A program made the translations under genes and the position numbers. A DNA stretch of 64,000 nucleotides from contig NZ_RAIR01000002.1 of NCBI RefSeq assembly GCF_003625485.1, forward strand, positions 1-64,000. Direction: 5' to 3'. This DNA is from Butyrivibrio sp. CB08. Its GTDB lineage: Bacteria; Bacillota; Clostridia; Lachnospirales; Lachnospiraceae. The notes below the pieces were generated by a model, which saw only the letters and a list, made by a program, of their open reading frames with translations, did not search any database and was not told the DNA's origin. Shown here piece by piece: positions 54,588 to 61,081 of the stretch (positions are counted from its first letter, which is position 1; each line of letters begins with the position of its first letter).

Positions 54588-56132
54588 TTACCATCCAAGT
54601 ATGCTGTCAACTAGTCCTAATGTTTCTGAGGTAATGCCAAATGCAGTGTCAACTACTCCGCCTTCATCAAAGACTTCTCCCACAACTGTATCTACTGTTT
54701 CGGTTGCCACATCAGTAGCAAAGTCCTCTGTAGCAGAAACCACTTCACTTACAGGTGCAATTGATTCGATCTTTTTAAGATCATCTGTTGATACATGCAC
54801 GTGAGTTTTGCCTTTTTTCACATCCACAGTAGTGGATTCTTTTTTGGTCTCTTCTTTCTTTTCTTCTGATCTGTCTTCCTCTGGCTTTTTAACTTCAGCT
54901 GAGGCTTCTGGTTCTGACTGACTTTCCTGATGTGATTCTATAACTGTATTTTCCTGACATCTGATATCCTCTATTCTTGTTCGTACCTGGGAAGGCTCCT
55001 CTACTTTTACCTTGACCTCCACATCGGATTTCTTTTCATCAGCATCGAAGTCTTCCCCAACATAAGTAATGCCCTTAATCGTTACGCTTTGTGTGTTTGA
55101 GGAGGAGGCATTACCCACTTCTTCTACTTCCTTAACATAACTTACAGAGTATGGAGTTACTACAACCCTGTCTGCAGCTCTGGTAAAAGAGCATGTGGTG
55201 AGAACGCCAGTTGTGATAGCCAGCATCAGTAAAAGATAAAATGAAGGTTTTCTGTAATTGAAGATTCCCTTTATCCTGGTTCCCACTGCAACTTCGCCAA
55301 AGGCTACAGGATAGACCATCATCCTTCTCTTTTTGGTGCTGCAGGACAATAGTGACTCTGCGTAAGATTTCTTTTCATCAACAGACATCCTGCTGATAAC
55401 TCTCTCATCGCAGGCAAGCTCAATGTCTCTGCAAAAGAGAACGTAGGCAAGCCATACAAATGGATTGAACCAGTGAATGGTCAGAATAAGAAAGCCAAGC
55501 TGTTTTCTTAAATGATCCTTCCTCTTTAAGTGCACTCTCTCATGAGCCAGAACATTGACTATTGTCTCGTGATCAAGACCTGAAGGAATGTAGATTGCTG
55601 GCTTTATCAGTCCAAAGATGAAAGGCGTGTCTATCTCATCGCAGACATATACCCTCTCACTGGACCTGTATCTTATGGATATCCTGGTCTTAAGCCTTAT
55701 GGAAATGTAGCTATAGGAAGCATAGCCAAAGGCCATAAGCATTCCAATGATCCAAAGAACAACCAGATATACAAAGCTTCCAGCGCTTTTAGCAGCTACA
55801 TTCTGAGTCTCTACAGGCGCTGCATCTCCAGAAGCGATGTCCTCAAGAACTCCTGTGGCAGGAGCCAGCGTATCTTCAGAGACGTAAGTAGCTACGTTGT
55901 TTGTATTCTCTTTTCCGAAAGCAGACTCTATCATGTTCCCAAAATCTGGCATAAAGCCTATACCAGACTGTATCTGAACAGGAACAAGGAGCCTTAAAGC
56001 CACAATGGTCCACAATACCCCCATGAACCACTTTGGCGCTTTCTTAAGCGGTATTCTAAGTAGTGACACTGCCACGATCAAAAGAACCGAGGCAAAACTC
56101 ATTTCAAGTACTTTACCAAATATTAACCCCAT
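54588..56132 (-). CDS. BlaR1/MecR1-type M56 membrane metallopeptidase
   Basis: A 514-residue protein. Four membrane segments lie at about residues 10-30, 35-55, 120-140 and 300-320. The zinc site NVLAHERVHLKRKDHL (HExxH type, near residue 190) sits on the cytoplasmic side. The C-terminal 200 residues are outside the membrane but do not resemble the penicillin-binding sensor of BlaR1. They are Glu/Lys-rich and disordered (EVKKPEEDRSEEKKEETKKE), so the signal sensed must differ. It would cleave or relieve the paired BlaI-type repressor gene, 31 bases upstream. Confidence 0.88.
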   Translation of the reverse strand: MGLIFGKVLEMSFASVLLIVAVSLLRIPLKKAPKWFMGVLWTIVALRLLVPVQIQSGIGFMPDFGNMIESAFGKENTNNVATYVSEDTLAPATGVLEDIASGDAAPVETQNVAAKSAGSFVYLVVLWIIGMLMAFGYASYSYISIRLKTRISIRYRSSERVYVCDEIDTPFIFGLIKPAIYIPSGLDHETIVNVLAHERVHLKRKDHLRKQLGFLILTIHWFNPFVWLAYVLFCRDIELACDERVISRMSVDEKKSYAESLLSCSTKKRRMMVYPVAFGEVAVGTRIKGIFNYRKPSFYLLLMLAITTGVLTTCSFTRAADRVVVTPYSVSYVKEVEEVGNASSSNTQSVTIKGITYVGEDFDADEKKSDVEVKVKVEEPSQVRTRIEDIRCQENTVIESHQESQSEPEASAEVKKPEEDRSEEKKEETKKESTTVDVKKGKTHVHVSTDDLKKIESIAPVSEVVSATEDFATDVATETVDTVVGEVFDEGGVVDTAFGITSETLGLVDSILGW

Positions 56133-56163
56133 ACATTACCCCTCTTGCTGTCACATGATGTCG

Positions 56164-56523
56164 TTACTGTATTTTGTCAATTATGTTGCGTATTTCCTCT
56201 ATGTCCTTTCTTGATAGCTGCTGATGTGAAGTAAATGCAGCCAGAAATGCCGGAAGGGAACCACCAAAAGCTTCATCCACAAATTCTTCGCTCTTTTTTG
56301 TATAAAACTCTTCCTTGGAGATCTTTGCAGATACAACTCCGTCTATGTTCTGAAACAGCCCCTTGTCGCAGAGCTTTTTGAGAACCGTGTAGGTAGTTGA
56401 CTTCTTCCAGTCAAATCTCTCAGCGCAGAGCTTAACCAGTTCCCCTGAGCCAATGGGCTCTCTCTCCCAGATAAGCTCAGCAAACTTCATTTGTACTTCA
56501 CCAAATTCTACAGCCATGATCAT
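56164..56523 (-). CDS. BlaI/MecI-family transcriptional repressor
   Basis: A 119-residue winged-helix repressor: FAELIWEREPIGSGELVKLC (about residues 14-33), the recognition segment KKSTTYTVLKKLCDKGLF and wing NIDGVVSAKISKEEF, then a helical dimer domain. In the Bla system it dimerises on its operator and is released when the sensor peptidase cleaves it. It is encoded just before the M56 peptidase gene. The inverted repeat at 56,534-56,583, just upstream of the gene, is a candidate operator. Confidence 0.92.
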   Translation of the reverse strand: MIMAVEFGEVQMKFAELIWEREPIGSGELVKLCAERFDWKKSTTYTVLKKLCDKGLFQNIDGVVSAKISKEEFYTKKSEEFVDEAFGGSLPAFLAAFTSHQQLSRKDIEEIRNIIDKIQ

Positions 56524-58135: not shown

Positions 58136-61039
58136 CTAGCTTAGTATTCTGGACAGCTCCAAAAGCATCTTCTTTACGTCGATCGGCTTTGCTATATGTC
58201 CGTCCATGCCCGCCTCCTGGGCCTTTTTGATGTCCTCATAGAAGGCATTGGCCGTCATTGCTATAACTGGTATGGATGACTGAAGAGGATCGCTTAAACT
58301 TCTTATGGCCATGGTCGCTTCATAGCCGTTAAGTAGCGGCATCTGAATATCCATAAGCACAACATCGTAATAACCAGGATCACTCTCTCTTACCTTTTCA
58401 ACAGCCTCCTGTCCATTCTCAGCCTGTTCCACCACAAAGCCGTTCCTTTCAAGAAGCTTGGCAGCAATCTTTCTGTTTATAGGCATATCATCAACAAGAA
58501 GGGCAATCTTGCCAGTAAAGTCCATGATTTCCGTATTGCCTGCGCTTGATTCCTTTGCCTTTAAAATATCCTCCTGGGTCTGAAGTGGAAGTTCAAGATT
58601 TACCACAAACTCAGAGCCCTTATCCTTTTCGGATGTAACTTCAATTGTTCCACCCATCATTTCCACGATGTTCTTTACAATGCTAAGTCCAAGACCGGTT
58701 CCCTGAATACCGCTTATTGTGGAGTCAACCTCCCTTTCAAAGGCATCAAATACCCTCTCAGTAAACTCCTTGCTCATTCCGATTCCATTGTCTTTTACAC
58801 TGATCTCGTAAAGGGCATTTCCAGGCTCTTTTGCCGGCTTTTCTATTACACTTACTGCGACCCTTCCTCCTTCCGGAGTGAACTTATAGGCGTTACTTAC
58901 AAGGTTAAGAAGCACTCTGTTAAGTCTGGTTTTATCGCAATATACGTATTCATTTTTGATTCCACTGGCATCAACACTATATTCGATCTTCTTCTCTTTC
59001 ATCTGGGAGGAAAAGAGATCCCTAAGGTCGTCCATGGTGCTACTAAGGTCCACAGGAATCGCCTCAAGCTCCATCTTTCCGCTCTCAATCCTGCTCATTT
59101 CCAGAATGTCATTGATAAGAGCCATCAGATGACTGCTTGCTCCCCTGATCTTGCCCAGATACTCCTTAAGTTCTTCATAGGTCTTTGCTTCGCTCTCAGC
59201 AAGATCAATGTATCCAAAGATAGCATTCATAGGTGTCCTTATGTCATGGGACATATTGGACAGGAAAACCGTTTTGGACCTGCTCCTTTCATTGGCCTTG
59301 GTGGTCTCAATAACAGCATCTCTCTCCCTCTTGGCAATGATGGAATAGATAAAGAACATGATGATAAGGGAGATTATATTAAGCGACATCTGAATGATGA
59401 TGTTATTCGTAATTCGCCTGTCAGTTTTATTTAGAAGATTCTCGATATAGAGCTCCGTCTCATACACATCTATAGGTCCCTGAGCCGGGTCATGTTCCTC
59501 ATAGTAGGAACGTATCTCTCCTACTACTTCAGCTGTCATCTGGTCGGTAGCTCTTTTCACCCAAAGAAGCGATGTCAGGAAGATCAGGAACAAAAGCCCG
59601 ATCCATACAATGGTCGACTTGCCAAAGCGCCTGTCCCTGTCCCTCTCAAATACAGCCCTGAAGCAAAGGAATCCAAGAATACTCCAGGTGGCCAGTATCA
59701 GGTAGCTCTCTGTGGACATTCCGTCGGAATACAGGAGCATAAAATACACCAGAAACAGGATGGACATAATAAAGCCCGCTATGCCGGTAATCTGAATCTT
59801 CGTGTTTTTCTCTCTTCTTGCCACAAGAAAGGCTGACGCTGAGGTGTAGGCATAGGCAATAACCGCACCAATGGTGTTAACGTCCACGATCCAGCCAATA
59901 GCTGTCCTTCCAAGGAATGGGATCAGCACAGATATGCACATAAGGAAAAGCAGCGCATTCTTTGGAGTGTAGTCTTTTCCAAGAACACCAAACCATGCAG
60001 GAAGCATTCTGTTTGCGGACATGGAATACATAAGCCTTGAAGCAGCAATGAAATTACCTATAAGTCCTGTAAGTATTCCAGCAAATGCCGCTATTCCAAG
60101 GATCTTAACGCCGTAGTCACCCGCAGCAGAATAAGCACCGTAGAATGTGGGAAGTCCCTTAAGTCCACTAAAAGAGCCAAGGTTTCTTGTATACTGCTCC
60201 CACCTGGTAACCCCCTCTGGAAGTGATGTTATGGCAATCTGAGACAGAGCCACATAGGAGAACACCGAGGTCAAAAGAGCTATCGTCATTATTGGCAGTG
60301 ATTTACTGGTGGAGAACTTGAATCCCGCAGTGGAATTGGAAATTGATTCAAAGCCAACAAAGGCCCAGGGCGAAAGGGCTATTATGCAAAACAGCTGCTT
60401 AAATGATGAGCCCTGGTCAGTGGCAAAGGCGGGCACAGGAACAGCATGGGAATCTCCGCTTTTAAGCCCTACCGCCACCACTATAATGGCAATTCCAAGA
60501 ACCATGGCAAGAGCAAGCACCACCTGAATCCAGACGGCCAGTCTCTTGGCATTGATACAGATGGTTCCGCAGACAAGGACCGCTGCAATTGACAAAAGAA
60601 TTTCTCCAAAATATACATCATATCCAAGGATCTGATAATAAAAACCAAACTGGAAGGTGCTTCCGAAGAGATTTTTGCTGATAAGAGCAAGAGCCGACGC
60701 ATTGGCCCAGATGATCGCAACATACACGAGAATAAGAAACCAAGCACTCATGAATCCATGATCGTAGCCAAGATTTTTGACGGTATAGGTCAGGGTTCCG
60801 CCTGCATCCTGATACCTGTTCATCAGAAAATGGTAGTTGATGCCTATGATAAACATAACGACAGCGCCAAGAATTAGTCCCAGGCTGGTTCCAAGAGGCC
60901 CTGCCATTGGCAGAAACGTAGTTCCCGGCATTACAAAAGCGCCCCATCCCACAGCGCATCCAAAGGACAGCGCCCAAACCTGCAAAGGGTTCAGGTATCG
61001 CTTAAGCTCATTAGCGGTCTCTCTACTGCTATCTGACAT
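58136..61039 (-). CDS. APC-family amino-acid permease fused to a hybrid histidine kinase and receiver
   Basis: A 967-residue fusion. Residues 15-465 form a transporter of the amino acid/polyamine (APC) type with about 12 helices; the N-terminal glycine-rich GWGAFVMPGTTFLP and the late TALIA-like helices fit. Residues 475-570 add two more helices flanking a 55-residue outside loop. Residues 585-660 carry the H-box with His598 (FLSNMSHDIRTPMNAI), residues 705-820 the HATPase (N716, DNGIGM, GTGLGLSI), and residues 845-967 a receiver with Asp897 (VVLMDIQMPLLNGYEA) and the C-terminal KPID. Conserved active-site residues are all intact. It has a GGAGG site and stands alone, divergent from the second FapA gene. 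Confidence 0.92.
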   Translation of the reverse strand: MSDSSRETANELKRYLNPLQVWALSFGCAVGWGAFVMPGTTFLPMAGPLGTSLGLILGAVVMFIIGINYHFLMNRYQDAGGTLTYTVKNLGYDHGFMSAWFLILVYVAIIWANASALALISKNLFGSTFQFGFYYQILGYDVYFGEILLSIAAVLVCGTICINAKRLAVWIQVVLALAMVLGIAIIVVAVGLKSGDSHAVPVPAFATDQGSSFKQLFCIIALSPWAFVGFESISNSTAGFKFSTSKSLPIMTIALLTSVFSYVALSQIAITSLPEGVTRWEQYTRNLGSFSGLKGLPTFYGAYSAAGDYGVKILGIAAFAGILTGLIGNFIAASRLMYSMSANRMLPAWFGVLGKDYTPKNALLFLMCISVLIPFLGRTAIGWIVDVNTIGAVIAYAYTSASAFLVARREKNTKIQITGIAGFIMSILFLVYFMLLYSDGMSTESYLILATWSILGFLCFRAVFERDRDRRFGKSTIVWIGLLFLIFLTSLLWVKRATDQMTAEVVGEIRSYYEEHDPAQGPIDVYETELYIENLLNKTDRRITNNIIIQMSLNIISLIIMFFIYSIIAKRERDAVIETTKANERSRSKTVFLSNMSHDIRTPMNAIFGYIDLAESEAKTYEELKEYLGKIRGASSHLMALINDILEMSRIESGKMELEAIPVDLSSTMDDLRDLFSSQMKEKKIEYSVDASGIKNEYVYCDKTRLNRVLLNLVSNAYKFTPEGGRVAVSVIEKPAKEPGNALYEISVKDNGIGMSKEFTERVFDAFEREVDSTISGIQGTGLGLSIVKNIVEMMGGTIEVTSEKDKGSEFVVNLELPLQTQEDILKAKESSAGNTEIMDFTGKIALLVDDMPINRKIAAKLLERNGFVVEQAENGQEAVEKVRESDPGYYDVVLMDIQMPLLNGYEATMAIRSLSDPLQSSIPVIAMTANAFYEDIKKAQEAGMDGHIAKPIDVKKMLLELSRILS

Positions 61040-61081
61040 ATGCTACACCTCCATTAACTATATTTTATAACATTTTTTATA

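Follow-up and report, generated by a model that had tools for sequence, protein, structure and literature searches.

A predicted APC-family receptor kinase of Butyrivibrio sp. CB08 with a probable phosphorelay to cyclic di-GMP

Introduction

The closest described kind of protein is the SLC5-STAC kinase, represented by CbrA, CrbS and RpuS, in which a transporter core and a histidine kinase share one chain and serve nutrient sensing (available parts of PMC13022988, PMC9100948 and PMC5715377). One-chain transporter-kinase proteins are termed rare in the accessible text of the CbrA preprint (PMC13022988). We analyzed a 64,000-nucleotide stretch of Butyrivibrio sp. CB08 (contig NZ_RAIR01000002.1, positions 1 to 64,000; hereafter the window) containing a gene that joins a permease of the APC family to a complete hybrid histidine kinase. 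Compared with CbrA, CrbS and RpuS, the transporter part is APC (PF13520/PF00324) and not SLC5, a transmembrane (TM) helix, a loop and a further helix (TM13-loop-TM14) stand ahead of the kinase, apparently in place of STAC, and the candidate partners are a phosphotransfer protein (HPt) and regulators of cyclic di-GMP (c-di-GMP) rather than a transcription regulator; CrbS is likewise a hybrid kinase. The gene and its domains, class-specific residues at the inner gate, a single clade of relatives with exchanged outputs, and the adjacency and co-occurrence of HPt and c-di-GMP regulator genes together indicate that the protein is probably a transporter-derived receptor kinase feeding a phosphorelay to c-di-GMP.

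Other systems share single features with this protein. In LysP-CadC an APC permease forms part of a sensor and governs a separate membrane regulator (available part of PMC12764776); that system consists of two proteins with a transcriptional output, whereas here there is one chain and probably a phosphorelay. The 5TMR/S-component-fold kinases BtsS and YpdA use a transporter-related fold as kinase input (available part of PMC11109136), but the fold is another one and not APC. GkApcT, of the CAT family, has the family fold with broken TM1 and TM6 and an inner gate that can be aligned; it is a working proton-coupled transporter with D237 and T43, whereas the sensor has E231 and W32. Yeast Ssy1 and Gap1 are APC-family proteins that serve as nutrient receptors; they differ in being eukaryotic and in having no kinase in the chain.

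In the portions of the literature available to us, the described one-chain transceptors use the SLC5 fold; here a second transporter family seems to have turned receptor once and to have been reused with different outputs. A preliminary description of this locus, made from the sequence alone, had called such a fusion rarely described. This holds for the titles and abstract openings listed in searches of the openly licensed PMC literature, a body outside which most subscription journals lie, where no description of an APC-kinase or APC-GGDEF fusion was found; the gene type itself is not rare and occurs in Lachnospiraceae, Selenomonadaceae and Oscillospiraceae.

Results

An APC core and a hybrid kinase in one chain

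The gene is a single uninterrupted open reading frame of 967 codons on the reverse strand. It is the sole full-length copy of the fusion and the sole PF13520 gene in the host genome (3.54 Mb, 99.6% complete). Pfam matched residues 16-439 to AA_permease_2 (2e-21; 76.9 bits against a cut-off of 27; profile positions 1-409 of 427), a near full-length match that places the transporter half in the APC family. HisKA (residues 589-654, 8e-19), HATPase_c (702-817, 6e-28) and Response_reg (847-959, 4e-26) follow. The phosphoacceptor histidine, the N and G boxes and the receiver phosphoacceptor aspartate of a hybrid histidine kinase are all present, in sequences that we take to be the motifs so named: H598 (SHDIRTP), N716 (NLVSN), DNGIGM at 750, GTGLGLSI at 780, D850/D851, D897 and K951. 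Helix positions come from a simple hydropathy scan, which gave peaks across the transporter region and at 476-494 and 547-565, the last two separated by a loop of about 48-52 residues. The features are as follows.

58136..61039, reverse strand: whole gene, APC permease-HisKA-HATPase_c-receiver, 967 amino acids (open reading frame, Pfam, protein search)
61048..61052, reverse strand: ribosome-binding site GGAGG, 8 nt upstream of the ATG (read directly)
59723..60994, reverse strand: APC transporter core (AA_permease_2), residues 16-439 (Pfam)
60941..60949, reverse strand: TM1 broken-helix motif G31-W32-G33; in GkApcT it is GTG, with carboxylate contacts there (alignment)
60323..60370, reverse strand: TM6 segment 224-239 with sensor-type E231, S234 and N235, which are D, P and Q in nearly all stand-alone relatives (alignment)
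60053..60055, reverse strand: N329 in TM8, F in stand-alone relatives and M321, an inner-gate residue, in GkApcT (alignment)
59558..59614, reverse strand: added helix TM13, residues 476-494 (hydropathy)
59402..59557, reverse strand: predicted outside loop, about residues 495-546 (hydropathy; sidedness deduced on the basis of 12 APC core helices whose two termini are cytoplasmic)
59345..59401, reverse strand: added helix TM14, residues 547-565, connecting to the kinase (hydropathy)
59078..59275, reverse strand: HisKA domain with H598 (Pfam, motif)
58589..58936, reverse strand: HATPase_c catalytic domain with N and G boxes (Pfam, motif)
58163..58501, reverse strand: receiver domain with D897 and K951 (Pfam, motif)

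Among the six Pfam families matched at E 0.01 there was no SSF/SLC5 core, AA_permease being found instead, and no STAC domain, for which Pfam may hold no model. The one-chain layout of transporter core, two extra helices around a loop and complete hybrid kinase, as first read from the sequence, was thus borne out by Pfam, motifs and hydropathy. Two genes or a frameshift could be ruled out: no sign of a stop or frameshift was seen, and the four domains lie in one chain in all 120 best database proteins (the query and 119 relatives). A vestigial transporter was ruled out for this gene by the Pfam core match and the conserved core residues.

Fused relatives in several families

The order APC-HisKA-HATPase-receiver, whose spread the preliminary description had proposed to trace, recurs in relatives from at least three bacterial families. 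A search that scored 8000 candidates sharing most words with the query returned 120 best proteins, the query among them, all listing AA_permease, HisKA, HATPase_c and a receiver (REC); the other 119 are 55-78% identical to the query, and lengths in the set run from 964 to 1122. Where source names were given, they were 'amino acid permease', 'ATP-binding response regulator' or a signal-transduction kinase.

Genome samples were scanned with the first 572 residues, and genomes less than 80% complete were left out of the phylum and family scans for fusion, REC-EAL and HPt alike. Long fused frames (>800 amino acids) occurred in 4 of 398 genomes of the phylum-wide sample (the host G000, G240, G028 and G348; G and L numbers are our handles for genomes and loci). 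Fused relatives were present in 28/396 genomes of the family sample, counted at E < 1e-90 with a frame of at least 750 amino acids or when split over contig ends (G708). In the genus sample, 27 of 61 genomes had matches at E 1e-20; among these, G802 has a fragment only, in G799 the frames are split, and G831 shows fragments together with a single frame of 553 residues. The initial scans scored the best 3 candidates per genome in many cases and 22 in the genus REC-EAL scan, and absences there are not firm. A pattern scan of named genomes gave at least 588 confirmed stretches, not all of them separate loci. Most of the 80 retained loci belong to Lachnospiraceae (Butyrivibrio, Pseudobutyrivibrio, Oribacterium), Selenomonadaceae (Quinella, Schwartzia) and Oscillospiraceae, with ruminants as a frequent source; lone matches in metagenome-assembled genomes of Flexilinea, Victivallales and Verrucomicrobia may be binning errors.

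One sensor clade with exchanged outputs

A FastTree phylogeny was built from 64 transporter domains, comprising 35 sensors and 29 transporter-type relatives (21 stand-alone, 8 labelled enzyme-fused). All 35 sensors formed one clade (support 0.82, with 0.93 and 0.91 at the nodes next inward). Support was 1.00 where this clade meets the nearest stand-alone proteins, but the latter gain no support as a clade of their own (0.11). Two hydrophobic segments precede the output in 32/35 sensors, GGDEF forms included, and one in the remaining 3/35.

The outputs carried by the APC module vary: HisKA-HATPase-REC, the same with a second REC (L066, L069), PAS-GGDEF (L072, L073), GGDEF (L092) and GGDEF-REC-EAL (L070, L071, L209). 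The GGDEF forms are nested within the kinase forms, grouped with L074 (1.00); a single GGDEF origin is unsupported (0.12). The REC-EAL class described below is joined directly to APC-GGDEF in G466, G577 and G825 (47-49% identity). The single clade, the nested GGDEF forms and the shared added helices suggest that a single transporter lineage turned into an input module, whose outputs were exchanged afterwards. After removal of L187, in which no APC frame was found, the 79 named loci held the complete types APC-HK-REC (HK, histidine kinase; 63), the same with the kinase as two matches (2) or with two RECs (3) and APC-GGDEF (2), and the open-ended frames APC-HK-REC (3), APC-HK (4) and APC (1); in L158 APC and HK-REC are encoded in two successive frames.

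Other fusions were seen in the tree and its surroundings. In another family of the phylum, L093:4504-9406 and L094:393-5382 hold tandem pairs of APC-kinase fusions with weakened kinases, near a receiver + CheB-like gene (CheB by eye); in L093 neither protein has a HisKA match, and one HATPase_c match lies under the cut-off. A more distant APC clade carries a fused iron-containing alcohol dehydrogenase, by Pfam in L085:5780-8563, L089:3721-6612 and L091:2533-5376, these being the 3 of 7 members scanned; the label on L084, L087, L088 and L090 comes from length and tree position. A class-III aminotransferase-like neighbour, named by eye, recurs at these loci, and the arrangement suggests a permease joined to an enzyme of an amine or sulfonate pathway. 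In L086:6151-8280 an APC permease is joined to a cytidylate-kinase-like domain (PF13189).

Class-specific residues at the inner gate

The preliminary description had suggested alignment to the site residues of APC proteins. The transporter half had no match in PDB at E 0.1, and the link to GkApcT (5OQT) was made via a stand-alone relative. The sensors were compared with transporter-type relatives in the 64-domain set and, as close sets, in 120 close sensors and 120 stand-alone proteins:

Position 231 (GkApcT D237): E in 35/35 sensors; D in 27/29 and G in 2/29 transporter-type relatives; close sets, E120 against D118
Position 234 (S240): S23, T9, M2 and A1 in sensors; P in 29/29 transporter-type relatives; close sets, S119 against P120
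Position 235 (T241): mostly H18, N7 and Y6 in sensors, Q in 1; Q in 29/29 transporter-type relatives; close sets, N114 against Q120
Position 329 (M321): N21, L8, F4 and G2 in sensors; F in 29/29 transporter-type relatives; close sets, N116 against F120
Position 105 (E115): separates the classes in the close set, but not cleanly in the wider one

P234 is found in no sensor of either set, and the TM6 signature GFDxIPQ of the nearest stand-alone relatives is GFESISN in the Butyrivibrio protein. In GkApcT, M321, I234 and E115 belong to a thin inner gate, with a water bridge between E115 and D237 and a contact between T241 and R327, and D237A abolished all function (available part of PMC5803215). 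Of 450 positions in the close sets, 32 are class-specific, and the equivalents of E115, D237, T241 and M321 all belong to these 32, with a chance of 2e-5 for positions that were looked up after TM6 had stood out. Equating E115 with N113 of the sensor was ruled out by the alignment, which maps it to position 105. Loss of glutamate at 238-239 was rejected as a sensor mark: E239 is present in 2/120 close sensors and kept by 20/35 sensors of the wider set.

Sensors and transporters alike largely retain the substrate region (G31-W32-G33, P224-W225). G31, G33, W100, P224 and G229 are invariant in the 35 sensors, the 21 stand-alone and the 8 enzyme-fused relatives, and W32 is present in all of these except two stand-alone proteins. 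The alignments suggest that binding remains and that inward release has changed; transport may be weak or lost in the sensors. The late choice of the gate positions weighs against this, as do the conservative D-to-E change, which could preserve transport, and F329, kept in 4/35 sensors.

The rival that survives best, unlikely as we judge it, is a true transceptor with an APC half that still transports and a kinase that responds to flux or to the transport cycle. This has been proposed for CbrA, whose transporter part imports histidine (available part of PMC13022988). The complete core agrees with the transceptor reading, as do TM1 GWG and TM6 P(W)xFxGF, which both classes largely retain, and the acid that D-to-E retains at the gate; the class-specific changes at 231, 235 and 329 (and 105 in the close set), together with the adjoining P234, speak for a receptor instead. 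That the host genome has a single PF13520 gene is compatible with both. The term 'transport-coupled', applied to the protein in the preliminary description, therefore goes too far as stated, since the sensors differ from the sampled transporters at this gate.

Ligand clues from stand-alone relatives

Some of the stand-alone proteins nearest the sensors lie in informative gene clusters. L100 adjoins a sulfopropanediol dehydratase (1543 bits, cut-off 1000) and its activase (571, cut-off 500), and L099 a choline-kinase/NTP-transferase protein and a BCCT transporter. Slightly further out, L103 and L104 adjoin HTH-NTP-transferase proteins, L103 also a cytidylyltransferase-like gene, and L105 has a similar neighbour by eye; further still, L107 adjoins a sulfoacetaldehyde acetyltransferase (772, cut-off 676) and an aminotransferase. 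No such clear theme appeared among the neighbours of L101, L102 and L109-L111. The few informative loci may share small head-group-like compounds: choline, taurine and sulfonates. W32 occupies the place of GkApcT T43, whose backbone touches the substrate carboxylate (available part of PMC5803215). Together with these neighbours, W32 suggests that an alpha-amino acid is one candidate among several and perhaps not the most likely; the amino-acid ligand first proposed is in that form not supported.

HPt and c-di-GMP regulators as candidate partners

No operon partner of the fusion gene was seen within the window, in line with the earlier remark that no output regulator lies beside it. A likely pair lies elsewhere in the genome, on contig 27 and unlinked to the fusion: an HPt of 110 amino acids (G000:C27:172605-172937, HALKG) and a REC-GGDEF*-EAL protein of 583 amino acids (C27:172961-174712), here called REC-EAL. 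The latter has what we take to be the EAL motifs; Pfam gives a GGDEF domain, yet the GGDEF motif was not found. Compared with sister-group copies, the REC-EAL protein is 45-48% and the HPt 36-47% identical. The earlier suggestion that phosphate passes to an unlinked phosphotransfer protein is probably right, with this HPt as the candidate.

Similar genes adjoin the fusion elsewhere. REC-EAL directly adjoins APC-HK-REC in 7/32 sensor loci (L074, L076, L078-L081, L083), five of which also carry an HPt gene of 112-119 amino acids; in L092 the neighbour of an APC-GGDEF gene is a REC-EAL-GGDEF gene, and in L066 an HPt of lower similarity lies upstream of the fusion. Among the 79 named loci, REC-EAL lies within two genes of the fusion in six, together with HPt in L115, L176, L184, L186 and L191 and with an unassigned 123-residue gene in L171, and REC-GGDEF does so in five (L137, L152, L161, L168, L170). 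In the genus loci, which were selected for a nearby HPt, HPt and REC-GGDEF line up with the fusion or a remnant of it in 8/8. HPt lies directly upstream on the same strand, with gaps of 30-33 nt, in G793, G797, G800 and G838, where a divergent REC-GGDEF adjoins; G802 has the same arrangement with an HPt upstream of a fusion remnant. In G815, G816 and G824 REC-GGDEF is directly upstream and HPt faces away. Butyrivibrio proteoclasticus P18 is one genome in which HPt immediately precedes the fusion. The GGDEF motif was found in 4/4 REC-GGDEF proteins inspected from these eight loci, and in L204.

Co-occurrence across genomes was also compared, with P values that ignore relatedness. The HPt class was cut at E <=3.4e-31 in the family sample (next 7e-28) and at E <=2e-35 in the genus (next 2e-24). 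In the family sample it was present in 23/28 fusion genomes against 16/368 others (Fisher 3e-22), and the REC-EAL class in 21/28 against 16/368. In the genus the HPt class was present in 25/27 fusion genomes against 2/34 others (1e-12). Among the 35 genus genomes at least 90% complete, the figures were 14/15 with the fusion, two of them with broken fusions (G799, G802), and 0/20 without it (6e-9). As a control, another HPt type (C16 in the host genome) was found in 24/27 fusion and 26/34 fusion-less genus genomes, with no clear link. Of the two exceptions, G825 has two fusion matches, APC-GGDEF-REC-EAL and APC-GGDEF, and fits despite the missing HPt because GGDEF-type fusions need none; the genome of G817 is 79% complete. 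In the 27 of 61 genus genomes with the class, HPt lies at most 2 kb from the fusion or remnant in 8, beside REC-EAL in 16, and neither was seen in 3.

REC-EAL relatives outside this pattern were noted. G794:C25:27346-29058 (L219:5335-7056), 84% identical, lies in a genome with no fusion match and no HPt of the class; it is probably intact, with one TAG in the match yet a 573-residue frame. Twelve fusion-less genus genomes (e.g. L202:7561-8904) carry a receiver-less GGDEF-EAL, 58-61% identical to the host REC-EAL, in frames of 443-479 amino acids. This form is also present in the fusion-bearing G800 and G828 and is possibly linked to sensor loss; its surroundings in G139 showed no HPt gene.

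Discussion

On the proposed reading, the APC core, of LeuT fold, would bind a small nutrient from outside. With the inner gate rewired, occupancy would shift TM6 and TM8 rather than, or more than, pass solute, and this motion would act on the kinase through the added TM13-loop-TM14. Phosphate would then move from H598 to D897, on to the separate HPt (G000:C27:172605-172937) and to the receiver of the GGDEF-degenerate EAL phosphodiesterase (C27:172961-174712), so that the nutrient would set the c-di-GMP level.

Several observations weigh against this phosphorelay. Loci with partners are a minority, about 9/32 sensor loci and 12/79 named loci, and these adjacency counts are raw counts for the fusion loci alone. 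The host genome has at least 9 other hybrid kinases and 9 other HPt matches. The HPt score cuts were chosen after the gap had been seen. The HPt class is found without the fusion in 16 family genomes and in G803 and G832 of the genus, so it may serve other kinases; the fusion is found without the class in G240, G556, G621, G763 and G768 of the family sample. HPt is kept in G466, G577 and G773, whose fusions, as far as found, are all of the GGDEF type, and full-length REC-EAL relatives occur in the fusion-less G794 and G844. The HPt/REC-EAL pair is not exclusive to this sensor.

It is quite improbable, in our view, that the protein is an ordinary hybrid kinase with an output mainly to transcription regulators, the c-di-GMP link being a by-product of genomes rich in such genes. 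Some adjacency would be expected in a genome with 76 initial candidates from the REC-EAL query and its many hybrid kinases; yet the APC module is fused directly to GGDEF and GGDEF-REC-EAL, the gene rows repeat, and HPt co-occurs inside one genus with a consistent exception (G825). That the APC half is a mere membrane anchor or vestige, with the signal coming from the TM13-TM14 outside loop or the cytoplasm, is the least credible alternative: the loop is variable, L077 is very divergent (branch 1.73) and G799, G802 and G831 have broken or partial copies, but the invariant G31, G33, W100, P224 and G229 (W32 nearly so) exceed the needs of an anchor, and the loop is poorly conserved, shrinking to about 14-30 residues in other members.

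The receptor-kinase reading extends to a broader one, which we put forward tentatively and with slightly more doubt than confidence. One ancestral APC transporter, from a group with gene neighbours for choline-, taurine- or sulfonate-like compounds, may have slowed or lost transport through a rewired inner gate and gained two helices to become a 14-helix plug-in receptor. Histidine kinases, diguanylate cyclases and GGDEF-REC-EAL proteins would then have acquired this receptor by shuffling, with c-di-GMP as the main output, in a family widespread in rumen bacteria. The sister transporters and the short list of fixed residue changes make the question of pump to receptor testable by point mutation. 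The protein is a possible route from a nutrient to c-di-GMP in Butyrivibrio and other rumen bacteria, where attachment to plant fibre is perhaps affected.

The neighbours of the fusion gene in the window are PhoH-PIN and FapA-like genes and, by eye, BlaI/BlaR1-like genes. At 54588-56523 on the reverse strand, a BlaI-like repressor gene is followed by a gene for a BlaR1-like membrane metalloprotease (both by eye). The FapA-like protein (PF20250, PF03961; 61207-63711, forward strand) is encoded divergently from the fusion gene, and its N-terminus has a long run of imperfect repeats, by eye of the kind 'QMxEIRxGLExGxDxxxY'.

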